A DNA stretch of 64,000 bases from an uncultured Bacteroidales bacterium (GTDB lineage: Bacteria > Bacteroidota > Bacteroidia > Bacteroidales > Muribaculaceae). The position numbers and the translations under genes were made by a program. Below the pieces are notes generated by a model. The model was given only the letters and a program-made list of their open reading frames with translations. It was not told the origin of the DNA and made no database searches. Below are positions 4,177 through 16,504 of the stretch, piece after piece. The stretch spans positions 62,001-126,000 of the forward strand of contig CADCFN010000005.1 of assembly GCA_902800715.1 (NCBI GenBank). Reading direction: 5' to 3'. Each line of letters begins with the position of its first letter. Positions within the stretch are counted from its first letter, which is position 1.

Positions 4177-7100
4177 TCATCGGAGCACCTTGTAGGTCGA
4201 GCTGCTGCCATCACTGTAACGGGTAACAACGATGTTCACGCCCTCGAACGGCGTTTCGCTTTCCATACCCATGATGTTATAGTAGCTGACGCTGACAACC
4301 TGCTTGGCGTCAATCACATTCTTGACAGCGGTGGGATCAGGACGACCACTGGGCAAGTCGGCAGGCGATATGCCGAAGCTGCCGTCAGGAGCGGCACCAG
4401 GACCTCTGCGAGGACCACCCACATTCCTGTCATTGCGCGTGATAATCACATGGAACAGGTAAGGCTCGCCCACCTGAAGCGCATCGGGATTCTCGGCGGT
4501 GACAGGACTGCCATAGGACGGAGTGTTCTCTTCGCCCATACCAAGCAAATTGTAATCCCAAGTATGAACAGTGAACGAACCACTCAGGTCATAACCGTTA
4601 ATCGAGGTGCCGTTAGGCTGCACATTGCACTCCAGCACGTCAAAGCGGTCATTACCCATCCAGACGCCCCATACCTGGGCAATCTCCTGAACCTTAGGAT
4701 TCATGAAGAAGATCTTCTTGCCTGCTACTGGCGATGCTGAACCGGCTTCGGCTCCGTCGCCGTAAGGAGCATTCAGATTATCTTTCATGAAGTTGGCAGG
4801 CGTGTAGTGGTTGTAGTAGTACTTGTCTTCACCGTTATTCTCGGCATAATTGCCGTCATAGCCGGGATAACCCTCGACGGGATTCTCGTCCACCTTGATG
4901 GGCGATTCGGTCAACTTGATGGTGTAGTTCAAATCGTCGGTGTAGTAACCCTTGACGGTAGCACTCATCAACTTGCGGCTCTCGTAGTCAAACGCGCTCA
5001 CATCGTTCAGGCCGCTGAAGTCGAGAACGACCCAGTTGCTCTGATCCCAGTCACGGGTCTGCAGGCCCAAGATGTCTTTCACATAGTCGGTTTGACCGTC
5101 AACGATGCTGGTCTTGTCAATCGAGACATTACCCTGGTCTTTTGCCCAGAGCTGGTTGATACCCTTCTGGGGATTGACAACAGCCCAAACACCAATCAGC
5201 TCATCGCTCACGAGTACCTGCTTATTGCCCTCAACAGGCTCAACCGGCGTCTCGTTAGACTCGATATAAGCCAGCGGGGTTGCTTCCAGACCATACAGGT
5301 AAACATCCTCGTTGAGCGAGGCATCACTATAGGTCGAGAAGACACGACCCTTGGCATAGTAGCGCAGGGTGCGGTTGGTACCGTCATAGTTGAACATGAT
5401 GGTAGCGGGATTGCCGTTATCCTGGGCGACGCTCACGCTGGCCTCGCTGTAGGTCGAGGTGGCGGCAGCAGTCTTCAGGTTGGCATTGTCGTTGGTGGTA
5501 ACTACCAGATAGCCGGTGTTGTCACCATTGATGTTCTTGAAGTAGTAGCGGCCGGCATTGGCTTTCTCCAGCACAAACTGGGCAAGCTCGTCGTTGCCGT
5601 AAACTTTCTCCTTGGTGTCATCAACAAACATCACACCGACCGAACCGCGGTTGTTCTCGTTCTGAGTAGTGCTCAGACCCATATTGGCCTGCTTGTTGAC
5701 AATGACATAGACATTGCCCTCCTGGGGCGCGGTCTTCACCAGGTCAAACACTACACTGTTCTTCTTGACGAAGGTGTAGGTGCAGGTCACGGGATTGCTC
5801 CACAGGGTCGTGATTACATTGCCCTGATCGTCCTTCACCTCCAGATAGGAGATGGCGGTGACGGTCGTGGTCTCGGTAATCGCATCGTCACCCGTCAAGG
5901 TAATCTCGCCGTCGGTGACAACGGTACCGTTCTCCAGGGTGGGAACTTCACCATTGAGCGTGTAGAGCGTTACGGTGGCAGGATCGCTCTCCTCGTTGGT
6001 CGAGATGGTCACATCCACACTCTCATCACCGGTGACAATCTCAATCACTTGGCTCTCAGGTGTGATGACGGGATCCTTGATACCAACAAACTTGTACTCG
6101 GCCTCCACGGTTTTTGAGCGCATCATGTCACCGAAAGTGGAAGGCAGCTCGGCATAAGCCTGGACATGGGTGTCGCTGTTGACGATGAACGGTCCGATAA
6201 ACTCTTCCCAATCCTCCATGTCATCAGTCTTGTAGTAGATGACGGGCGTCACACCTTCATCGACCCACTCGGGAGTCTCGACGGTGATGTCAACCACCTG
6301 CTGAGCGGTGCACTGGTCGTTGGACTCAGGCGTAATCACGGGCTTGTAAATCCACAAGAAGTCGATGGGACACATCTCAAATGCCTGATCACCATAAGGC
6401 TTATAGTAATCAATGACACCATAAACATCGAAGGTTGCACCCTTATCCTGCTTATCATCAAAGAACGCCTGATCATAGTCATCTATGCAATTGATGGCTT
6501 CAGTGTGGCCATTGTATGTGCATGAACCCGCACTCCACAAGTAGAACTTGTCGTAATACTTGTTGGAGGCGCCTGAAGCATCGGTAATGGTGCCCAAGTG
6601 CTTGGGATCATTCGCAGCATAGTCATCCACATCAGACAACTCCGAGTAAGCCAAGTGTACATAGTGACCCCACTGGTTCTCGCCGTCGGTCGTTCCGCTG
6701 GCAATGGTAGCACAATCGGTGTGTTCGGGCAGAATTTTACTCCATCCCAAAGCAGTAGTCGGCCAAGAAGTAATCTCGTGGCTGCTGGTACCCAACTGGA
6801 TATGGAAGTTGTTCTCCCAGATGTTGGTCACACCGGCAATCTCGCTACCGTCAATCCAGTCACCCATCTTGAAGATAGTGTATTCGCCGGTATTGCGCTT
6901 GCCGAAGTAAACGCAGGCATAGTCAGTATTGTCGCGTACATAGCAGAACTCGGGATATTCGCCGTTGTTGGTGTAAGTGGAGTGGTAAACCACCTGCACG
7001 GGGTTCACAAAGTGGGCAGTAACACCCGTAGGACAATTGTTATTAAAGTCCTTCAGGTTCTGATAGTAATTACCGGTCTGTGTGAACGGCTTGATGATGT

Positions 7101-10100
7101 AGTATCCCTCGCTAATGGTGCTTGCAAAGTCGCCGATATAGGCGATAGCCTTCACACGGTAGCTGTTGCCAACAGTCATTGAGATGGGACCAGCAAAGTG
7201 GGTAGAGGACTTGCTGGGATCGCTCACGCTGCTGGGCGGAGTCGTGCCACTCACTTCCTCAATCACATAGTAAATGTCGGCATTGTCGGTGTTTGTAGCA
7301 ATCTGCAAGGTCTGGTTGCCAAAGTAAATACCACTGTAACCGCCATCTTTACCCTCCAGCGGCGAGAAGAACGGTGCATTAACATTGATTACCTTCTCGG
7401 CATAGGTATAGCTGGCAACATCAACAGCACTGGGCACGTTATCATCGTTATAGGCAATGGCCTTAACGGTAACCTGGTCACCCAGACTAGCGAAGGTCAC
7501 CTCAAACGGACCTTCATACAGGGTGCCGTTCGACGAGCTGGGCTCGCTGCCATCGATGGTGTAATAAACAGTTGCATCAACAGGGTTGCAGCCGATGACA
7601 ACCGTCAGAGTGGGATTATAAACCTCACGCGATGCGGGACGAATGGTCACCTTAGGAGCAATCCAGGTGTAAACCACCTCGGCGGGTGCGCTCACGTTGC
7701 CCTCGTCATCGATGGCGACAGCCTTGATGGTCGTGGGACCGTTAGCGTCATAGTGTACCGCAAACTGACCTGTGTACTCTACTCGTGTCGAGCTGGTAGC
7801 AGGATCAGAGCCGTCGGTCGTGTAATAGACGGTGGTACCGTCCTCAGCAGTAATAGTCACATCCTGATGGCCGGTATACTCACCAGTAGCGGGAGTAATC
7901 TCCGGAGCCAAGACTGCAGGATGCAGCACGTAGAGATAGGCAGGAACGCCAGTGTTATTTGAATAAAGACGGAACGGACCACCATTAGGTATCTGAGGAT
8001 TGTATCGGAGGGTATAACTATCCCACGTCAGATAATATCCATTGGCATCACCAGGCGTTTCCCATTGATAACCACTAGTGGTGGAAGGATAGAACTTAAT
8101 ACCACTGCCAGTTGAACTGGTTGATTCAAGATAACCTTGAGTGGCTTGCAATGTCCAATCATCTTTGCTTCCTCCAAACGTGAATACAATAGCATCAGTA
8201 TTGGCGATATCAACAATCTGATTCTGAGTTCGCCAAGCAATGTTGACTCCAGAACCCCATGAAACATTATTACCCGTATAAATGCCATTGAATGCAACAG
8301 GAGTAGCGCCCTCATAGACGATGACGTACTTCTCGCCAGCTTTAATCTGGCTCTCGTCGGTCACCTTCTCATAGAGGGTCTCACCCTTGGGCTGACGGGT
8401 GTAAGTCTCAGAAACCGTCGCACTGGTATAGGTGTTGCCACCAGCGGTAAGAGTGGCACGAGCCATTACGGTAACTGCGTCGCCCACGGTAGCTACCGAT
8501 ACGCTAAAGCCACCGGTATAGGGCAACCAAGTGTTACCGCCATCGGTGCTGTACTCGATAGTGGCACCAGCCACATTTGCACTGATGGTGACTTGTTCAC
8601 CCATGGTTTGGCCCACAAAGTTGCAGCTAGCGGGGCTGATGGTCACGGTCAGCGGCTCACGGGTAGCGTTGACGGTAACGGTAACATTGGTAGCGCCAGC
8701 ACTCGACAGCGTGATGCTTGCCGTCTCGTCGGCACCCTGTCCATTATAGGTAACAGTTACCTCAACATTACCGGCAAGTGCAGCCTCTTTGCTGATGCTG
8801 TTGGTCGAGAGCGAGAAGCCCTTGGCCTGGTCCTCGGCGCTCAACGTCAGCGTCACACCCTCGCTCAAGTTGCGGCCACCCACGGTAAAGGTATTGCTAC
8901 CTTGAGCTTCACCAGCAGCCAACTCGATGGAAACAGCAGTCGGATTAGCTACAATCGCCGGAGTCGAGGACTCCTTATAGATATAGACATATTGCTGAGT
9001 GCCTTTATAGCAAGCAAAACGATGCTGGTTATTATTATTATTGAACTGAAGATACCTATCACTATTTGTATTGGACCGGATTGCAAACTTATTGCCTAAG
9101 TCATTATTGTCACCATCTTTATGACCGATCGTCCATGTGTGGGGAGTGTCGCCATAATTCAAAGCGTTACTGGTCGGTGAGGCAAGTATACCCTGGCTGG
9201 TCAACAGCGTCCAACTGCCAGATTGACCTGCAAGAGTAACAACAGCCATATCTTCGGTCGAAGTGATGAGACCGTTAGTCTCGTGAACACCTTCAACAGC
9301 AACACCATAATTACTTGCATTAACGGGACCCATGACGATGGCAGTCTCAGCATCATCATCCGACTTATATACAATCAGATAAGTTTGTCCAGGCTGCAGG
9401 TCATTGATGTTGGTCAGCATTTCGTAGTCCTTGGCAACAAAGGGCGGAGTAATCAGATACTCTGCCGAGGCGACAGAACTGGTCACGCCGTTGCTCACTG
9501 CCACAGCCTTCAAAGTAACAGACTCACTGATACTGATGGCATTGCCGTCATAGAGGGTGCCGTTGTTCGCACTGGGTTCACTGCCATCGGTGGTGTAATA
9601 GATAGCAGCGCCCGGGGTAGCGCAAGTGATGGTCACCTCCTGAGTGCCCGAATAGGTACCCGAAGCAAGAGAGATGACAGGTGCGTGTACCAGTGCCGAA
9701 ATCGTGAACGTGTTATCATTCGGGTTGACTTGGACGGTATATTCACCAGGATTCAAGTGAATCGTAGCTGCATTAGATCCCGTATCGGCAGCATCAATAT
9801 CTACAGCTTGACCAGTATAGTCGGTCTGTCCTTGCAGATACCACGGTCCATTTGAATCGGGACCGAACTTGGTTGATACAGCAGTGGATTCATCACCTTG
9901 ACTCTTAGAGAAGAACATCCAGGAATCAGAGCCGCCATTTTGACCCACGGCAGTGATATTCACCGAATAAGTCCCGTCAGTGGTGTTTCTTGTCATCGCA
10001 ACACCATTGGAGAAATCAAAATTGTTGATATGGTCAGCATCAACACCAATATTACCAAAGAGGTAGATGGGACCCGTGTACAGGTAGTTCACGTCAACAT

Positions 10101-11877
10101 TGGTGGTCACGTTACCACTGGCAAGCCTAATGACGCCACTTTCACTCAGGGCATTACCATTATAGGTCACGTACACAGTGCCGTTCACACCATTATTGTT
10201 GACAAATCCCCAGTCAGGAGTTTGGCCACCAGTTGTGGTTCTCGAGAAGTTTCCAGACATCACATCCACACCCACGTTGCTAGGCAGGTTGGCACCAGTC
10301 ACCGTAAAGTCACCAGTCCTACCGCCGCTCGTATTATCATCATTGATGTTAAGCGGGTTGGGATCTGCCGTCAACGTCGGCGCAGGCGGAGTCTCCTTCT
10401 TGGCTGTCACTGTGAACGTCTCTGTCAAGTTGTCGGCTGAGCAGGTTACGGTAACAACACCTTGCACTGCGGTAGTGCTTGTACCGTTGTAGGTTATTGT
10501 GATAGTCGTCTCACTTATCGAGCCATTGGCATCTCGCGTTAAAGTCGTAGGCGAAACGCTAAAGTCCGCTCCATTAATGCTCACAGTCACGTCACCCGTT
10601 AAGTGAGCACCTGCCACAGTAAACGTGGTAGTAGTCACAGCACCAGCTGCAGCATTGTAGGGAATGTCAGTAAGTTCCAGTGATGCCGGAGGTGTTACCG
10701 TCAACGTCGGATCTTCGCTGTCCTTCACATAAAGGATAGCTGGTTGCTGACCACTTTCGTAGCAAGCAAAACGTGGTGAACCTGTATTATATTTCAGAAC
10801 ACGACTGGTACCAGCCACATTGGTTAACGAATAACCGCTGGTCCGACTACCTGAAGCAGTCCATTTAGAATTATTAGTAATAGAATTTTCTTCATCCAAT
10901 GAATTGCCGGAACTCCATTTCAGGTAGCCCGAACCATTATGGAAAGACAGATTATTATTACCATCTTTGGTCAGGGTCAGCTCACAAATATCACTGAACC
11001 CAGCAATATCGACGGTTCCACTGTTGATTGTCGGTCCTGATATCTGATTACCATAATGAGTTGATCCAGATTTATTGATGCTACCAAGGAATCTATTTCC
11101 GTCCTCATATACGATGATATACTTTTTCCCATCTACAAGTTGGTTGTCATCTGTCACTTTCTTGTAAATATTTGCAGCACCAGTTGTAATCACATATTCG
11201 GCAGTAGCTACATCACTATTATTCATACCACTCTTGACGGCCATCGCCTTGAGGGTACAGGTCTGATCAATGGTGACCGAACCACCATTAGAAATGTAGT
11301 TGCTACTCGTTGTTGGGTTGTTACCATCGGTCGTATAATAGATGGTTGCGCCACTGGTTTCACTAGTAATAGTCACTGTCTGCTCACCAGAATAAGTGCC
11401 AGACGGTAGTGAAATCGTTGGTTGCTTACATGTTTCCATCGTACCACCAGAAGTGGTCACCACAATCTTCGTAAAACGAGTCTGAGCCGTAGCAGTAAAT
11501 GTCACACTATTAGCCGTTCCAGTCCAAGTTCCATCATAACCTGAATAAGAATAACTACCTGGTGATGCTGACAACTTCCCAGGGCCATTGTTAGAATTAT
11601 TTTGGGCTGTACAAGTAATTACAATTTTAGTAATATTACTTGAACTGGAAATTACCATTGTCGCATTCTGATATAAACGAAAATGTTCGCCAGCCCAATA
11701 AGGATTATTCGAAGCAGTGTTCTTATTAATTGTGAGAGAAACACCATTACTGCTGACTGTTTGAGTATTCGTCACAGTCAAGCCGCTCAAGTTGTTACTA
11801 TCAAACGTGACTTCTGCTGCCCAGCCGACGCCGAAGGCCAGTAGGGCAGTCAATAAAAAAGTGAGTAATTTCTTCAT
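4177..11877 (-). CDS. Giant secreted multidomain protein with chitobiase-C-terminal-like repeats and T9SS sorting domain
   Basis: 2566 residues with a signal peptide (MKKLLTFLLTALLAFGVGWA), so exported. At least seven immunoglobulin-like modules resemble the CHB_HEX_C (chitobiase C-terminal) family, with cores such as ATIYYTTDGNNPTT (near residue 180), AAIYYTTDGSEPSA (762), TTVYYTTDGSDPAT (1350) and ATVYYTIDGSEPSS (1437), and weaker copies near 1530, 1880 and 1960. A second module, marked by YIIVYEDG, YLIVYKSD, YVIVYEG and YVIVNKQ, recurs near 250, 830, 1182 and 2056. Ig-like spacers and one segment with a SusE/F-like look (about 600-730) lie between. The end (SVSYYNIMGMES...STYKVLR) is a T9SS type A sorting domain. 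No catalytic domain was recognised, so substrate binding or surface scaffolding is inference. Confidence 0.85.
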   Translation of the reverse strand: MKKLLTFLLTALLAFGVGWAAEVTFDSNNLSGLTVTNTQTVSSNGVSLTINKNTASNNPYWAGEHFRLYQNATMVISSSSNITKIVITCTAQNNSNNGPGKLSASPGSYSYSGYDGTWTGTANSVTFTATAQTRFTKIVVTTSGGTMETCKQPTISLPSGTYSGEQTVTITSETSGATIYYTTDGNNPTTSSNYISNGGSVTIDQTCTLKAMAVKSGMNNSDVATAEYVITTGAANIYKKVTDDNQLVDGKKYIIVYEDGNRFLGSINKSGSTHYGNQISGPTINSGTVDIAGFSDICELTLTKDGNNNLSFHNGSGYLKWSSGNSLDEENSITNNSKWTASGSRTSGYSLTNVAGTSRVLKYNTGSPRFACYESGQQPAILYVKDSEDPTLTVTPPASLELTDIPYNAAAGAVTTTTFTVAGAHLTGDVTVSINGADFSVSPTTLTRDANGSISETTITITYNGTSTTAVQGVVTVTCSADNLTETFTVTAKKETPPAPTLTADPNPLNINDDNTSGGRTGDFTVTGANLPSNVGVDVMSGNFSRTTTGGQTPDWGFVNNNGVNGTVYVTYNGNALSESGVIRLASGNVTTNVDVNYLYTGPIYLFGNIGVDADHINNFDFSNGVAMTRNTTDGTYSVNITAVGQNGGSDSWMFFSKSQGDESTAVSTKFGPDSNGPWYLQGQTDYTGQAVDIDAADTGSNAATIHLNPGEYTVQVNPNDNTFTISALVHAPVISLASGTYSGTQEVTITCATPGAAIYYTTDGSEPSANNGTLYDGNAISISESVTLKAVAVSNGVTSSVASAEYLITPPFVAKDYEMLTNINDLQPGQTYLIVYKSDDDAETAIVMGPVNASNYGVAVEGVHETNGLITSTEDMAVVTLAGQSGSWTLLTSQGILASPTSNALNYGDTPHTWTIGHKDGDNNDLGNKFAIRSNTNSDRYLQFNNNNNQHRFACYKGTQQYVYIYKESSTPAIVANPTAVSIELAAGEAQGSNTFTVGGRNLSEGVTLTLSAEDQAKGFSLSTNSISKEAALAGNVEVTVTYNGQGADETASITLSSAGATNVTVTVNATREPLTVTISPASCNFVGQTMGEQVTISANVAGATIEYSTDGGNTWLPYTGGFSVSVATVGDAVTVMARATLTAGGNTYTSATVSETYTRQPKGETLYEKVTDESQIKAGEKYVIVYEGATPVAFNGIYTGNNVSWGSGVNIAWRTQNQIVDIANTDAIVFTFGGSKDDWTLQATQGYLESTSSTGSGIKFYPSTTSGYQWETPGDANGYYLTWDSYTLRYNPQIPNGGPFRLYSNNTGVPAYLYVLHPAVLAPEITPATGEYTGHQDVTITAEDGTTVYYTTDGSDPATSSTRVEYTGQFAVHYDANGPTTIKAVAIDDEGNVSAPAEVVYTWIAPKVTIRPASREVYNPTLTVVIGCNPVDATVYYTIDGSEPSSSNGTLYEGPFEVTFASLGDQVTVKAIAYNDDNVPSAVDVASYTYAEKVINVNAPFFSPLEGKDGGYSGIYFGNQTLQIATNTDNADIYYVIEEVSGTTPPSSVSDPSKSSTHFAGPISMTVGNSYRVKAIAYIGDFASTISEGYYIIKPFTQTGNYYQNLKDFNNNCPTGVTAHFVNPVQVVYHSTYTNNGEYPEFCYVRDNTDYACVYFGKRNTGEYTIFKMGDWIDGSEIAGVTNIWENNFHIQLGTSSHEITSWPTTALGWSKILPEHTDCATIASGTTDGENQWGHYVHLAYSELSDVDDYAANDPKHLGTITDASGASNKYYDKFYLWSAGSCTYNGHTEAINCIDDYDQAFFDDKQDKGATFDVYGVIDYYKPYGDQAFEMCPIDFLWIYKPVITPESNDQCTAQQVVDITVETPEWVDEGVTPVIYYKTDDMEDWEEFIGPFIVNSDTHVQAYAELPSTFGDMMRSKTVEAEYKFVGIKDPVITPESQVIEIVTGDESVDVTISTNEESDPATVTLYTLNGEVPTLENGTVVTDGEITLTGDDAITETTTVTAISYLEVKDDQGNVITTLWSNPVTCTYTFVKKNSVVFDLVKTAPQEGNVYVIVNKQANMGLSTTQNENNRGSVGVMFVDDTKEKVYGNDELAQFVLEKANAGRYYFKNINGDNTGYLVVTTNDNANLKTAAATSTYSEASVSVAQDNGNPATIMFNYDGTNRTLRYYAKGRVFSTYSDASLNEDVYLYGLEATPLAYIESNETPVEPVEGNKQVLVSDELIGVWAVVNPQKGINQLWAKDQGNVSIDKTSIVDGQTDYVKDILGLQTRDWDQSNWVVLDFSGLNDVSAFDYESRKLMSATVKGYYTDDLNYTIKLTESPIKVDENPVEGYPGYDGNYAENNGEDKYYYNHYTPANFMKDNLNAPYGDGAEAGSASPVAGKKIFFMNPKVQEIAQVWGVWMGNDRFDVLECNVQPNGTSINGYDLSGSFTVHTWDYNLLGMGEENTPSYGSPVTAENPDALQVGEPYLFHVIITRNDRNVGGPRRGPGAAPDGSFGISPADLPSGRPDPTAVKNVIDAKQVVSVSYYNIMGMESETPFEGVNIVVTRYSDGSSSTYKVLR

Positions 11878-12306
11878 AAAAAAGCTGAATTAAATGTTAA
11901 TATATTAATGTTGATTCTATTGCTAGATGATTATTTCACTTGGGGATTGATGCCCCTAGTGCTTAGTTGGATTGTTAACAGCTCCACACGTGTCGCTCCC
12001 CCGATGGGAATGCTAACCGATGGACAGGTAGAGGATAGACACATAATACTATAAAAAAAGGCACTCAAAATCTCCTCACACCGCCAGGAAAACGTCTCCA
12101 AACGGCTGAAAGGGAATGAGTTCCATCCAAAAAGCTATTATGTCCATAATTTTTCACCACAGATGCCCGATTATGAGAACATCAGTAATTTGGCGACAAA
12201 ATTACTCATTATATATAATACACACAACACTTCTCAAAATATTTTTTTTAAATTGCCACAACAACCCCTAACAGCAAGAAATCCAGCCCTATTGCAACCA
12301 CAAAGC
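11878..12306. other. AT-rich intergenic region without recognised gene
   Basis: Leader region of the giant secreted-protein gene, then AT-rich sequence up to the first REPIN-like element. The stretch near 12160-12260 has short open frames with no recognisable protein character. No TAnnTTTG box was identified for the large gene, so its promoter remains unassigned. Confidence 0.5.
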
Positions 12307-12418
12307 CCGTGGCAGGAGCCACGGCACAGAATGACCCAGACACAGGGCGGTACTAAAAAAAGGGGACGGCAGGGTTGGCTATGCCGTGGCTCCCGCCACG
12401 GTCACTACCAGGCAAGGG
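12307..12418. repeat. REPIN-like element, copy 1
   Basis: About 112 bp, nearly identical to 13506-13616 in the same orientation. It contains two REP-like hairpins in inverted orientation: CCGTGGC-AGGA-GCCACGG at the left and CCGTGGC-TCCC-GCCACGG at the right, with a shared spacer containing an A-run followed by GGGGACGGCAGGG. Two inverted REPs separated by a short spacer is the REPIN architecture. It lies just beyond the 3' end of the RAYT gene. Confidence 0.85.
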
Positions 12419-12433
12419 TGACTCCCAACCGAG

Positions 12434-13414
12434 CTACTCCTGGGACTGGTTACAGATGGCAGCTGCCATATCATTGAGTTGCCAGCATTGTTGCTGCTTG
12501 ATGGTGCGGCGGTCATTGTGGTGTTCCCAAGGGGCTAACAACAGCAAGCGACCACGGGTGCAAGCGTCGAAGCGCTCGCCTCCTGGCTTCGCCAATGGAG
12601 CGAAGCCATTTTCTTGCAGAATAATGATGGGATAACCGTTTTCAAAGGCTGCCCTCATCACCGCCTTCTCTCCTGGACTTATGCTAGGCGACACAAGTAC
12701 AGCTCCATTAGCGGCACAGGACATAAAATGACGTCGCGTGTCATCAATTTCTTGGAGGGTAAGTTTGCGTGTGCATTGCACTTGCAAGAGCTGCGGTGCA
12801 TGCAATAGAAACAAGTTACCCAGCGCAGCAAAGGTAAAACCTGCCACCTGAATATCACGTTGCACCTGGAAGTACTCTGGACGGCTTCGTTTGATAGCCA
12901 AGCGACGAGGATTGTCATCGAGATAGTCCATCATGCGCTGAAGGTGATTTTTCCCCTCGAGGATGCGATCGTTATAACCTTCTTCCCACAAGATATCGTC
13001 GGAATCGCAAACCAGCCCTTGTTGCTTGAGCTGGCGATAAATCCGTGTGCATCCTCCTTTATACCCATTGATGACTTGGCTTAGATGGTGGTCAATCCTC
13101 TCCTTCACAAAGATGATGACGTGCAGGTGATCGGGCATCAACTGCTGAGAAATGACAGCAACGGCTGGATAATGGAGGGTTATGGCACCCAATTCGTCGA
13201 GAACAGCTTTGCCAAGCGGACTTGGATGCATGACAGCGGGCTCATGTTCTCCATCGCCAGTGACGCTCCCGAATAATGGACGACGCCCCTTAACAACGAG
13301 GGTTATCATGTAGATGCATCGACCGTGATAGTCGTGCCCCACACGGCGCCGCTTCATCGATGGGAGGACCTCGCTTGCCCATTGCTTCTTGCCTTTGAAC
13401 TTCTCTCTATCCAT
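12434..13414 (-). CDS. REP-associated tyrosine transposase (Y1_Tnp/HUH) with extra C-terminal domain
   Basis: 326 residues. The N-terminal half is a Y1/IS200-like HUH endonuclease: the metal-binding motif is MPDHLHVIIF (H96, H98), with candidate nucleophile tyrosines Y118 and Y125 in the following helix. Proteins of this type (RAYTs) cut and mobilise REP/REPIN hairpins, and the gene is bracketed by two such elements. Residues about 190-320 are not part of the Y1 fold. They read as an alpha/beta segment (GAVLVSPSISPGEKAVM, then YPIIILQENG, then LLLLAPW) that looks Rossmann-like and recalls DprA/SLOG nucleotide-binding domains; that assignment is inference. The start at MDREKF was chosen because a TACTTTTG box lies 13 nt upstream; a longer start at MVTIM would place that box 1 nt from the ATG. 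IS200-type transposase is the alternative name. Confidence 0.8.
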   Translation of the reverse strand: MDREKFKGKKQWASEVLPSMKRRRVGHDYHGRCIYMITLVVKGRRPLFGSVTGDGEHEPAVMHPSPLGKAVLDELGAITLHYPAVAVISQQLMPDHLHVIIFVKERIDHHLSQVINGYKGGCTRIYRQLKQQGLVCDSDDILWEEGYNDRILEGKNHLQRMMDYLDDNPRRLAIKRSRPEYFQVQRDIQVAGFTFAALGNLFLLHAPQLLQVQCTRKLTLQEIDDTRRHFMSCAANGAVLVSPSISPGEKAVMRAAFENGYPIIILQENGFAPLAKPGGERFDACTRGRLLLLAPWEHHNDRRTIKQQQCWQLNDMAAAICNQSQE

Positions 13415-13427
13415 AATGGTAACCATG

Positions 13428-13435
13428 CAAAAGTA
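13428..13435 (-). promoter_or_regulatory. -7 box (TACTTTTG) for the RAYT gene
   Basis: TACTTTTG on the minus strand, 13 nt from the chosen ATG. It lies inside the longer open frame and so argues for the shorter start. Confidence 0.5.
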
Positions 13436-13505
13436 CTGATACCACTGCAACCTTACAAGTAAAAAACGGGAAAATCAACAAAAAAGACACACGATTGCTA
13501 CCAGG

Positions 13506-13616
13506 CCGTGGCAGGAGCCACGGCACAGAATGACCCTGACACAGGGCGGTACTAAAAAAGGGGACGGCAGGGTTGACTATGCCGTGGCTCCCGCCACGGC
13601 CATTACCAGGCAAGGG
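13506..13616. repeat. REPIN-like element, copy 2
   Basis: About 111 bp, a direct repeat of 12307-12418 with a handful of substitutions and one A fewer in the A-run. It has the same paired inverted hairpins built on CCGTGGC/GCCACGG. It lies between the RAYT promoter and the 3' end of the acyltransferase gene, so the RAYT gene is bracketed by two direct copies. Confidence 0.85.
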
Positions 13617-13622
13617 CGGCGC

Positions 13623-14618
13623 CTAGCGGCGCTTGCCTAGCATCCAGGGGAGGTAGCGCTCGAACAACAGTGCGAGGGGATAGAGAACTACCATCACAAC
13701 GAGGGCGATGCCGACCTTCAAGAGGATGTTGTCGTCGAAGATGTCGGGCCCGGTGAACTTTGCCACCAGCATCTTAATGACGCCGATAAGGTAGTTTTGC
13801 AAGGCTAGATAGGTGATGCCGGTGATGGCTACCGTGCGGGCGATGCGGCTGGCACCGCAATGCGCCTCCAACCACTTGCACACGGCGGTATAGAACGGCA
13901 AAACCAGGATGACGGCCTCGGGGGCAAGGACATAGGCCACGTCAGGGTTGATAGTCAAGGGGGCAACGATGAGGAAACCGAGGCCCAAAGCTGCCAGCAG
14001 CACCCACAGGAGCGTGCGGGACGGTGAGGTAAAGGAGAACTTGTCCACCAGTAAGTGGCAGCAGTTGCCCACAGCGTATATGGGCATATACAGGAAAGCC
14101 TTGTCCAGGTTCCAATAGCGGAACCAAGGCACGTCAGGCATGATGAGGAGGGATAGGCTCAGCACCAGAGCGACCACCAACGGCCAATAGCCACTGAGCC
14201 ATTTTTTGATTGGATAATAGATGACCTGCATGGTAAACAGGGCTGCCAGGAACCAGAATGGACCTAAAACGACGCTCGGGGTGCCTTGCAGATATTGCCA
14301 CAGTGGTGTGAGCGTGTCGATGGCCTGCTCCTCGGGACCTGCCATGCGACGCCCCACGACGAGCCACAGGGCATAGAAGAGAATAAAGAAGGTGGTGTAA
14401 GGCACCAGAATCTGCGGAGCGCGATGACGCAGAAAGGAGAAGAAATTCTTAGTCCTGGCGATGTTGAACAGGTAGCCCGCAGCAAAGAAGAACACCGGTG
14501 CGCCCATATTGAAGAGCGCCACCTCATGGGCGGTGTCATAACGTGGCGGCGTGTGATAGACCACCACGAGGAACATCGCGATGAACTTGATGTAGTCGAG
14601 CCACGCTTTCCTATCCAT
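13623..14618 (-). CDS. Membrane acyltransferase, acyltransferase-3 family
   Basis: 331 residues, polytopic (about ten hydrophobic segments). The N-terminus DYIKFIAMFLVVVYHTPP carries the family histidine in the first membrane helix, followed by VFFFAAGYLFN, where acyltransferase-3 proteins have a conserved FF.SG-type stretch. Members move acetyl or other acyl groups onto surface sugars, typically exopolysaccharide, O-antigen or peptidoglycan. The closest style is the short fucose-4-O-acetylase-like group. The start at MDRKAWLDYIK is preferred over an upstream one because acyltransferase-3 proteins begin with a [RK]...D..[RK] segment. Substrate unknown. Its 3' end abuts the REPIN copy 2. Confidence 0.8.
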   Translation of the reverse strand: MDRKAWLDYIKFIAMFLVVVYHTPPRYDTAHEVALFNMGAPVFFFAAGYLFNIARTKNFFSFLRHRAPQILVPYTTFFILFYALWLVVGRRMAGPEEQAIDTLTPLWQYLQGTPSVVLGPFWFLAALFTMQVIYYPIKKWLSGYWPLVVALVLSLSLLIMPDVPWFRYWNLDKAFLYMPIYAVGNCCHLLVDKFSFTSPSRTLLWVLLAALGLGFLIVAPLTINPDVAYVLAPEAVILVLPFYTAVCKWLEAHCGASRIARTVAITGITYLALQNYLIGVIKMLVAKFTGPDIFDDNILLKVGIALVVMVVLYPLALLFERYLPWMLGKRR

Positions 14619-14728
14619 ATATCCCAAATAAAAAGAAAACAATAAGTACAATAAAAACAATTATCGTGTTGCGGTCAACAAATTGTCATTATTGTATTTA
14701 TTGTTTTCTTACGTTGACTATTTACTTA

Positions 14729-16000
14729 TCAGTCAATGATATCAAAGCCAGTGTAACGCTGCAGGGCGGCGGGGATGCGGATGCCCTCGGGCGTCTGGTT
14801 GTTCTCGAGCAATGCGGCTACGATGCGCGGCAGAGCGAGTGCCGAGCCGTTAAGGGTGTGGCACAGGTGGGTTTTCTTGTCGTCGCCACGGTAGCGGCAC
14901 TTGAGGCGGTTGGCCTGATAGGTCTCGAAGTTGGAGACGCTGCTCACCTCGAGCCAGCGTTGCTGGGCTGCCGACCACACCTCGAAGTCGAAGGTAATGG
15001 CACTGGTGAAGCTCATGTCACCACCGCACAGGCGCAGGATGTGCCACGGCAGTTCAAGCTTTTCGAGCAGTCCCTGCACATGGTCCTTCATCTCCTCGAG
15101 AGCGGCATAAGAGTCCTCAGGCTTCTCGATGCGGACGATTTCGACCTTGTCGAACTGGTGCAGGCGGTTCAAGCCACGCACGTCCTTGCCGTAGGAGCCA
15201 GCCTCGCGGCGGAAACATGCCGAGTAAGCACAATTCTTCTTGGGCAATTCCTCCTGGGGGATGATGACGTCACGGTACATGTTGGTCACGGGCACCTCGG
15301 CAGTGGGGATGAGGTAGAATTCGTCAAACTGGCAGTAGTACATCTGGCCCTCCTTGTCAGGGAGCTGTCCCGTACCCAGTCCAGAGGCCTCGTTAACCAC
15401 GAGGGGCGGTTCTATCTCGGTATAGCCAGCCTTGCCAGCCTCGTCGAGGAAGAACTGGATGAGGGCACGCTGCAAGCGCGCACCCTTGCCCACATACACG
15501 GGGAAACCTGCACCAGTAATCTTGACACCGAGGTCAAAGTCGATGAGGTTATACTTCTTGGCCAAGTCCCAATGGGGCAGTGCATCCTCGGGCAATTCGG
15601 GCATCTTGCCACCGGTCTTCTCAACCACGTTATCCTCGGCGGTCTTGCCCTCGGGCACACCGCTGTAGGGGACGTTGGGAATGCCCAGCAGGAGCTTTGT
15701 GATTTCGTCCTGGGCGGCGCTGAGGTCATCGTCAATCTTCTTGTTGGCGGTCTTGAGTTCTGCCACTTGGGCCTTGACGTTTTCGGCCTCGTCACGGTTA
15801 CCCTGCTTCATGAGGGCACCGATTTGGGCAGCCATTTTATTGAGCACAGCGGCGTTGTCGTCGCGTTGTTTCTGCAGTGCACGGCGCTGCTTATCCAGTT
15901 CCACGATGCGCATGATGTCCTCACGAGCGTCAAAACACTTGACAGCAAGGCGGCGAATCACATCCTCGGGGTCCTGGTTAATGAGTTGTAATGTCAGCAT
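14729..16000 (-). CDS. serS: Seryl-tRNA synthetase
   Basis: Charges tRNA-Ser (and tRNA-Sec where present). 423 residues: N-terminal antiparallel coiled-coil arm (about 25-105, rich in K/Q/E/A) that holds the tRNA variable arm, then a class II core. Motif 2 region: ACFRREAGSYGKDVRGLNRL. Motif 3 region: LNGSALALPRIVAALLENNQ followed by GIRIPAALQRYTGF. The start MLTLQLINQDPEDVIRR is the usual family start. It is 48 nt downstream of the GatB/YqeY gene and may be co-transcribed with it. Confidence 0.96.
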   Translation of the reverse strand: MLTLQLINQDPEDVIRRLAVKCFDAREDIMRIVELDKQRRALQKQRDDNAAVLNKMAAQIGALMKQGNRDEAENVKAQVAELKTANKKIDDDLSAAQDEITKLLLGIPNVPYSGVPEGKTAEDNVVEKTGGKMPELPEDALPHWDLAKKYNLIDFDLGVKITGAGFPVYVGKGARLQRALIQFFLDEAGKAGYTEIEPPLVVNEASGLGTGQLPDKEGQMYYCQFDEFYLIPTAEVPVTNMYRDVIIPQEELPKKNCAYSACFRREAGSYGKDVRGLNRLHQFDKVEIVRIEKPEDSYAALEEMKDHVQGLLEKLELPWHILRLCGGDMSFTSAITFDFEVWSAAQQRWLEVSSVSNFETYQANRLKCRYRGDDKKTHLCHTLNGSALALPRIVAALLENNQTPEGIRIPAALQRYTGFDIID

Positions 16001-16009
16001 TTTTTATTT

Positions 16010-16038
16010 TCTGGTTTCTAGTCCCTAGTTTCTGGTTG
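16010..16038. repeat. Degenerate CTAGTCC/CTAGTTTC word repeat
   Basis: The short gap between serS and the GatB/YqeY gene holds TTTCTAGTCCCTAGTTTCTGG. Its complement resembles the words at 46486-46527. No coding or hairpin function seen. Confidence 0.4.
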
Positions 16039-16048
16039 GTGTTTTGTT

Positions 16049-16504
16049 TTAGTTTGCAGATAGCAGTTCTTTTACCTTGGCGCTGATGGCACGGCCCTCG
16101 GCACGTCCGGCAAGCTGCTTGGTGGCGATGCCCATGACTTTGCCCATGTCCTTCATGCTGGTGGCACCCGTCTGCTCGATGATAGACTTGATGTGAGCGG
16201 TCAGTTCCTCGTCATTCATCTGCTTGGGCAGGAATTCCTCGATGACGGCAGCCTGCAAGAGCTCCACATCGGCCAGATCCTGACGGTTCTGGTCGATGTA
16301 AATCTGAGCACTCTCTTTGCGCTGCTTAGCCATGCGTACGAGCACCTTCAAGGCATTCTCATCGGTCACCTCACCGTTATTGCCCGGTGCGGTCTTGATA
16401 ATCAAGAACTCGGCTTTGATGCCACGCAAAGCCTCCAGACGGCCTTTGTCGTGAGCCTTCATCGCCTCCTTGATGCCATTATTCACTTGATCAAAGATAC
16501 TCAT
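16049..16504 (-). CDS. GatB/YqeY domain protein
   Basis: 151 residues, the normal size of stand-alone YqeY proteins, which match the tail domain of the amidotransferase subunit GatB and are thought to touch tRNA. Family features: MSIFDQVNNGIKEAMKAHDKGRLEALRGIKA at the start (helical, L..LR.L), ESAQIYIDQNRQDLADVE in the middle and the terminal MGKVMGIATKQLAGRAEGR segment. It lies 26 nt behind ftsZ and ahead of serS, a common Bacteroidetes arrangement. Biochemical role is not established. Confidence 0.9.
   Translation of the reverse strand: MSIFDQVNNGIKEAMKAHDKGRLEALRGIKAEFLIIKTAPGNNGEVTDENALKVLVRMAKQRKESAQIYIDQNRQDLADVELLQAAVIEEFLPKQMNDEELTAHIKSIIEQTGATSMKDMGKVMGIATKQLAGRAEGRAISAKVKELLSAN

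Follow-up and report, generated by a model that had tools for sequence, protein, structure and literature searches.

To our knowledge, the role that RAYTs (TnpA-REP proteins) play for their hosts is an open question. REPIN populations reportedly last for millions of years (PMC8049555), and the closest described systems are the class 2 RAYT/TnpA-REP proteins covered by Quentin et al. in 2018 (PMC6006769), for which the Y---NP motif serves as the class signature. According to the abstract of this article, it is the TnpA-Y1 subclasses lacking an association with REPs that possess a large C-terminal domain; the extensions of subclasses 2.1 and 2.3 consist of a C-terminal HTH or Bac_DnaA_C domain, or of a distal domain of 61 amino acids. 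Table 1 of the same article contains neither a REP-bearing subclass with a distal C-terminal domain nor a subclass that combines the DHLH motif, a length near 326 amino acids, and REPs.

The window analyzed here, a stretch of 64,000 nucleotides from an uncultured Bacteroidales bacterium of the Muribaculaceae (contig CADCFN010000005.1), carries on its minus strand a RAYT gene (12434..13414) whose product unites a nuclease with a predicted mini-DprA tail. This protein shares the DHLH, W-E and Y---NP motifs and the flanking REP hairpins with the class 2 RAYT/TnpA-REP proteins (PMC6006769), but differs from them by some 145 C-terminal amino acids that form a DprA-type domain; its motifs bring it closest to subclass 2.2, which includes the E. 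coli protein. Subclasses 2.1 and 2.3 likewise possess a RAYT core followed by a C-terminal extension (the median length of subclass 2.3 is 325 amino acids), but they carry NHVH or NHYH instead of DHLH, their extension is HTH-like or unassigned, and they lack REPs and come from other main taxa. The window RAYT thus combines a large C-terminal domain with REPs, unlike the pattern given in PMC6006769. A search of the open-licence literature found no description of a RAYT-DprA fusion among the titles and abstract openings listed.

The RAYT gene, which is supported by its open frame, a Y1_Tnp match, and its paralogues and relatives, spans 326 codons from an ATG at position 13414 to a TAG at 12434-12436; an alternative TTG start at 13450 would yield a frame of 338. 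Residues 1-181 (12872..13414, minus strand) form the Y1/HUH nuclease half, as judged by Pfam PF01797 (Y1_Tnp; residues 84-167, E = 8.7e-6, above the cut-off) and by the NCBIfam model REP_Tyr_transpos (residues 91-171, E = 2.5e-12). With 46.9 bits, the latter match stays below the 80-bit cut-off of what is an equivalog model, a shortfall that weakens a claim of equivalence but not one of kinship. The Pfam scan of the protein left its last 137 residues without any match, and the PHROGs collection gave just a weak transposase match for the RAYT (E = 0.007) and none for the tail. The preliminary description of this DNA had placed a Y1/HUH nuclease with MPDHLHVII in the N-terminal half and a C-terminal part outside the Y1 fold; both assignments agree with the position of that motif at residues 93-101 and with the end of the Pfam domain at residue 167.

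Conservation was assessed in an alignment of 48 fusion proteins, 23 of them from genus-level searches and 25 from a search with the tail; as the latter were chosen by an MP[DE]HxH motif, the counts for the HUH motif are partly preselected. Within this motif (MPDHLH, residues 93-98; 13121..13138, minus strand), H96 and H98 are found in 48/48 proteins. The catalytic tyrosine motif Y---NP (residues 164-169; 12908..12925, minus strand), assigned from this alignment and the class 2 signature, is represented by Y164 (48/48), N168 (48/48) and P169 (47/48). With its HxH and Y---NP motifs, the Y1 HUH core has the hallmarks of a RAYT/class 2 TnpA-Y1 protein and, by sequence, keeps the predicted catalytic residues H96, H98 and Y164. 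We infer that Y164 would cleave REP sequences in their single-stranded form.

The tail, residues 182-326 (12437..12871, minus strand), is almost certainly homologous to DprA, through a family of stand-alone short DprA-like proteins for which we coined the name mini-DprA in this analysis. In a comparison by hhalign, the profile of the 48 tails aligned with that of 13 stand-alone mini-DprA proteins over 129 columns (E = 7e-15, score 91.9), while none of 60 column shuffles scored above 23.5 and the reversed profile gave 12.6. The mini-DprA profile was built from 13 (plus L128) of 22 loci, with fragments, longer DprA-like proteins and the RAYT excluded; L128, the protein that had led to this family, was left out of the 13-protein set used in the comparison. 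The direct comparison of the 48 tails with 19 DprA proteins (19 of 28 frames, picked from 29 loci by a DprA motif) is much weaker, with a score of 28.6 and an E-value of 0.0018 against at most 22.4 for 60 shuffles and 17.0 for the reversed profile. When 24-row alignments were compared with the 19 DprA proteins, E-values of 0.01 and 0.009 and probabilities of 4 to 5% resulted, and the hhalign probability of direct comparisons between tail and DprA ranged between 4 and 15% overall. Hence, the case rests on the bridging family, whose profile in turn aligns with that of DprA at E = 1.6e-6.

Individual proteins connect the tail to DprA as well. L128 (L128:1501-1968, plus strand) is a stand-alone frame of 156 amino acids that the tail profile matched at E = 2e-7 (for one genome) and that matches PF02481 (DNA_processg_A) below the cut-off (E = 7.4e-5). 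Used alone as the query against 395 genomes, L128 found matches in 20 of them, mostly related short proteins or pieces, in addition to DprA-like proteins of 311-380 amino acids; in the reverse direction, it also finds the tail of the RAYT on contig C12 of the genome under study (E = 8e-5). L140 is a tandem protein of 675 amino acids from another class of the phylum that contains two DNA_processg_A stretches; its second half is matched by the tail profile (E = 4e-7, for one genome) and, taken alone, matches PF02481 at E = 3.8e-16. Of six mini-DprA proteins scanned, all match DNA_processg_A, two above and four below its cut-off, and TIGR00732 matches proteins of this family below its own cut-off. 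Stand-alone mini-DprA frames are scattered over the phylum (L128, L144-L153, L155, L156, L159), and the L140 frame (L140:118-2142, plus strand) matches the PADLOC model PsyrA in two stretches at E = 1e-149.

Searches of the PDB point in the same direction. With E-values up to 10 allowed, the hits of the full-length RAYT profile were limited to eight sequences, five from Y1 transposases and three from DprA (E-values of about 0.1 for DprA), and the tail profile placed the DprA structures 5mll, 4ljr and 4ljk first at E = 0.03, followed by the next entry at 0.74. The aligned region extends from the G-N/G-D..LL..P..V....R..T stretch up to the strand that precedes the SG loop. PF02481 itself matched none of 24 tails and none of 10 divergent full-length fusions in Pfam scans, so that the tails stay short of the gathering score that defines DprA proper; of these 10 fusions, seven match Y1_Tnp at E-values up to 1, none of them above the cut-off. 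From profile comparison alone, the tail is predicted to adopt a DprA/SLOG-type Rossmann fold. The resemblance to DprA/SLOG proteins that the preliminary description had judged by eye is therefore borne out by the alignment with mini-DprA, by DprA as the best PDB match, and by the L140 bridge. Its further idea of a ligand-sensing or DNA-binding partner domain needs qualifying: the nearest kin of the tail is the mini-DprA branch and not a known ligand-sensing SLOG family.

In a merged motif alignment of 14 sequences (tails, mini-DprA and DprA), the elements of the three groups can be followed side by side. The tail loop SPSISPGEK (residues 242-250; 12665..12691, minus strand), which had been singled out at the outset, aligns with SGFHSQIEK of mini-DprA and SGFAKGVDK of DprA and is the counterpart of their SGFHSxxEK and SGxAxGxD motifs, respectively; among the 48 fusions, S246 is kept in 47, E249 in 48 and K250 in 40. 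Likewise, the alignments identify CTR (residues 214-216; 12767..12775, minus strand), which reads CTR or CSR among the tails, as the counterpart of CSR in mini-DprA and of GSR/GTR in DprA, with R216 present in 37/48 proteins. The tail strand GRLLLLAPW aligns with GRLLIITPF and GELLILSTF of mini-DprA and DprA, and N314 with the asparagine of the RN motif. Invariant in all 48 tails are L204, E249, I264, P277, L291 and N314, while G199 and N200 are found in 47/48 proteins each, and K276 and G288 in 46/48 each. The profile homology across the domain, the S-x-x-EK loop, the GRLL strand and the asparagine of the RN motif all tie the tail to the mini-DprA branch, whose stand-alone members show GN..LL, CSR, S-x-x-EK, GRLLxxSPF and RN in the order found in the tail. 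These proteins, however, lack a nuclease and keep the strand with the GG motif that follows RN, an element that is also kept in DprA and is absent from the tails in the 14-sequence alignment. From DprA/Smf proteins (PF02481, TIGR00732), the tail differs, despite aligned elements that are in register, by the loss of SGxAxGxD, in place of which it has SPxISPGEK, and of the GG motif, and by its invisibility to Pfam. Since the tails stop before this strand, the domain can be described, from these alignments, as a DprA-type domain without its last unit in which both loops are kept in changed form.

The fusion is old, dense in the genus and scattered in the order. A homologue search at E = 0.001 in 101 genomes (the genome under study, 60 of the same genus and 40 of the order) gave matches, counted among the matches listed, in 53 genomes: the genome under study, 46/60 of the genus and 6/40 of the order. 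By match ranges, only one of these six order genomes among the matches listed (G078) carries the tail; the other five match over nuclease residues, save for a weak match in G077 at residues 139-236. When a profile of 24 tails was searched against 393 genomes of the order, 19 matched, the genome under study included; in 16 of the 18 others, which represent nine genera, an HUH motif and the tail lie in one frame, and the remaining two contain a tail fragment (L127) and the stand-alone protein L128. The same profile matched four of 395 genomes of the phylum, namely the genome under study, L140 and two weak cases (L141, L142) that look glycosyltransferase-like by eye and were taken as chance matches. 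Viral contigs and phages contained no homologue of the tail, nor did plasmids, in which the sole match (Leptolinea) concerned residues 23-176 at 26.5% identity; with L128 as the query, plasmids and phages gave no match. The fusions L139, L134 and L131 are longer (440-523 amino acids from the first ATG of the frame), and in L139 inserted residues separate the nuclease from the tail.

Nuclease and tail are conserved to the same degree. Pairwise distances of nuclease and tail in the 48-protein alignment are correlated (r = 0.80; at most 0.26 in 1000 permutations) and similar in size, with means of 0.61 and 0.60, respectively. Of four pairs used to estimate dN/dS, only that with the sister species L036 was unsaturated for both halves; in this one comparison, the tail (0.048; nuclease 0.087) is under purifying selection. 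A conserved tail under purifying selection speaks against chance or read-through; a frame or assembly artefact was rejected as the explanation of the fusion, as was a chance resemblance of the tail to DprA. Conservation of the tail along with the nuclease, proposed as a check at the outset, is seen in these data, and the tail-less homologues that would have spoken against it did not come to light: among eight partial copies of the genus, no clean one was found, with L170, which matches up to residue 207 with 278 bases of its contig remaining, counted neither way. A break into two frames falls inside the tail in two copies (L167, L168) and between residues 129-142 in two others (L172, L173), all four of which retain the tail; L166 is truncated by the end of its contig, and L169 stops no more than 80 bases before its own contig does. 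The other matches listed by the search of 101 genomes were judged for the tail by match ranges alone. In L171 (G018:C12:58200-59500), the match at 731-1180 covers the tail alone, the preceding 730 bases being free of a nuclease match; it is either a solo tail or a decayed copy.

REP hairpins flank the gene on both sides. Repeats and exact REP sites define a REPIN 5' of the gene (13503..13615), with inverted hairpins at 13506-13525 (plus) and 13580-13599 (minus), and another 3' of it (12304..12416), with inverted hairpins at 12307-12326 (plus) and 12382-12401 (minus); the two REPINs are 95% identical over 112 bases. Each hairpin reads CCGTGGC-RGGA-GCCACGG and is followed by CAYAG. This 20-base pattern is sparse in the whole genome, with 12 exact sites, four of them flanking the RAYT gene, and 44 sites with up to three mismatches (one of which overlaps another on the opposite strand) versus nine for the reversed pattern. 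A CCGCGGC variant on contig C3 accounts for 25 of these 44 sites; the 24 hairpins of this type at about 89,680-148,280 of G000 contig C3, often closely spaced and on one strand, are related to the REP of the window RAYT, yet distinct from it. The paralogue on contig C1 has its own REP, GCGAGCC-NNN-GGCTCGC-AATACC, with nine sites at up to three mismatches (none for the control), four of which flank the C1 gene.

Across the genus, direct repeats in the flanks were found at 19/33 RAYT loci and were lacking at 14/33, versus 0/23 dprA loci. The 33 loci exclude the duplicates L039 and L040, the short-flanked L063 and the out-of-genus L068, and include L001 and L036, which are orthologues; of the 25 dprA loci given, two were dropped for short flanks. 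Outside the genus, a flank repeat of any kind was present at 5/25 loci, two of them direct. Hence, with 14/33 genus loci and 20/25 loci outside the genus being devoid of the respective repeats, the association of the tail with REPINs does not hold throughout. A hairpin pattern requiring six of seven pairs and a CA[CT][AG]G foot detected 49 hairpins near the 33 genus genes; after six had been dropped, 43 hairpins from 15 loci remained, all with the same GC end of the stem. Pair 4 of these 43 is T-A in 16, C-G in 12, A-T in three, G-C in two and mismatched in 10, pair 1 contains 10 C-A mismatches, and foot position 11 is C in 37/43, positions 1-5 being mostly fixed by the pattern. The REP stem thus varies with compensating changes as is expected of REPs, pairing having been part of the selection.

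The genome under study contains three further copies with nuclease and tail, on contigs C12, C1 and C7, the last of which was matched as two pieces of one frame. These four copies, at an identity of 45-55% by segment between the window RAYT and the others, show the low copy number and divergence of RAYTs, and near-identical intragenomic copies as in IS200/IS605 elements were not found. One could still regard the gene as an ordinary IS200-type insertion sequence with terminal hairpins in which the tail is incidental, given the near-identical repeats on both of its flanks, but this would be very surprising in view of the divergent own-genome copies, the Y---NP signature, and a neighborhood that, by eye, contains no tnpB beside the gene. 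Furthermore, in the sister species L036, whose protein is 93% identical, the gene is embedded in a collinear block of 4 kb (window 12390-16390) at 89.7% identity, and more matching pieces are found on the other side; this is more in line with a domesticated gene than with an active insertion sequence. A plain IS200 element was rejected on account of the divergent copies, Y---NP and this block. It is just as improbable that the tail is DprA-like by convergence alone or is a structural remnant without a function of its own; the silence of Pfam on the tail would fit this notion, but the profile alignment at E = 7e-15 with its shuffled controls, the bridges that run both ways (L128 and L140 from the tail, and from L128 to the C12 tail) and selection on the tail at least as strong as that on the nuclease, in one unsaturated comparison, all count against it.

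We favor, with somewhat better than even confidence, the reading that the window RAYT is a class 2 TnpA-REP protein fused to a truncated Rossmann domain of the mini-DprA branch that would dimerize the protein and hold the DNA strand. The Rossmann domain of DprA binds single-stranded DNA and dimerizes (PMC4489622), DprA dimers help in loading RecA on single-stranded DNA (PMC12386762, PMC4489622), and the TnpA-REP of E. coli appears to be monomeric, whereas the IS200 TnpA works as a dimer (PMC6006769). By analogy, single-strand binding and dimerization would most likely be the functions of the tail and, in the simplest reading, it would restore dimerization and strand-holding to a REP nuclease. 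The nuclease might recognize the REP hairpin as single-stranded DNA, for instance on the lagging strand, and Y164 might cleave it; the DprA-type tail would dimerize the protein and hold on to single-stranded DNA adjacent to the hairpin. The pair of inverted REPs in a REPIN could then be processed jointly by two nuclease heads, with the cut strand kept in place until it is re-joined. With SGxAxGxD changed and the GG strand missing, the DNA binding or the dimer interface of DprA may, however, have been lost.

The tail might instead act as a sensor or regulator akin to the DprA-type antitoxins PsyrA and ShosA, restraining the nuclease or releasing it once a nucleotide ligand, or single-stranded DNA that is foreign or abnormal, has been bound. 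In favor of such a role, the PADLOC model PsyrA recognizes each of the three mini-DprA proteins examined with it (E = 2.6e-11 to 8.6e-14), and S246 and E249 within the SPxISxxEK loop hardly vary. The literature lists relatives of DprA as the antitoxins of shosTA, syrTA and rqlHI and suggests that DprA may sense phage DNA (PMC9122126). We nevertheless consider this role rather unlikely, since PADLOC models find no match in the RAYT itself, inspection by eye shows neither a toxin nor a defence gene next to it, and the copies in the genus are multiple and often REP-flanked. More doubtful still is a RecA/SSB-handling module that would hand the nicked REP strand to RecA for recombination between REPINs. 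The presence of a DprA-related domain in the RAYT and the aid that DprA dimers give in RecA loading would suit such a module, but the similarity between the tail and ordinary DprA is remote (E = 0.0018), and the genome under study possesses a separate dprA gene, as do, above the Pfam cut-off, 29 of the 31 genomes searched. A bolder reading is that of a machine in one chain that cuts and then holds or hands over the DNA: the HUH head would nick REP hairpins, and the DprA-type half would dimerize, bind the released strand, and link the processing of REPINs with recombination or with the sensing of foreign single-stranded DNA; we put this forward as a tentative and rather improbable proposal. If true, DprA-type antitoxins would have a module in common with domesticated transposases.

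The retention of a DprA-type domain in one lineage of RAYTs gives rise to the testable idea of a nuclease working with a single-strand-binding, dimerizing or RecA-linked partner, and the fusion suggests how REP nucleases might hold or hand over cut DNA. It also brings into a domesticated transposase the mini-DprA domain, which has stand-alone kin similar to PsyrA, an antiphage protein. Two observations concern the neighborhoods of these genes. Beside the window RAYT lies a repetitive protein of 2566 amino acids (4177-11877, minus strand) with a signal-like start that, by eye, is probably surface-exposed or secreted. In four genomes (G000:C12, G002:C116, G017:C84 and G007:C48), a RAYT paralogue is located about 7.6-7.8 kb from the chromosomal dprA gene, an arrangement that, by eye, looks like conserved synteny.
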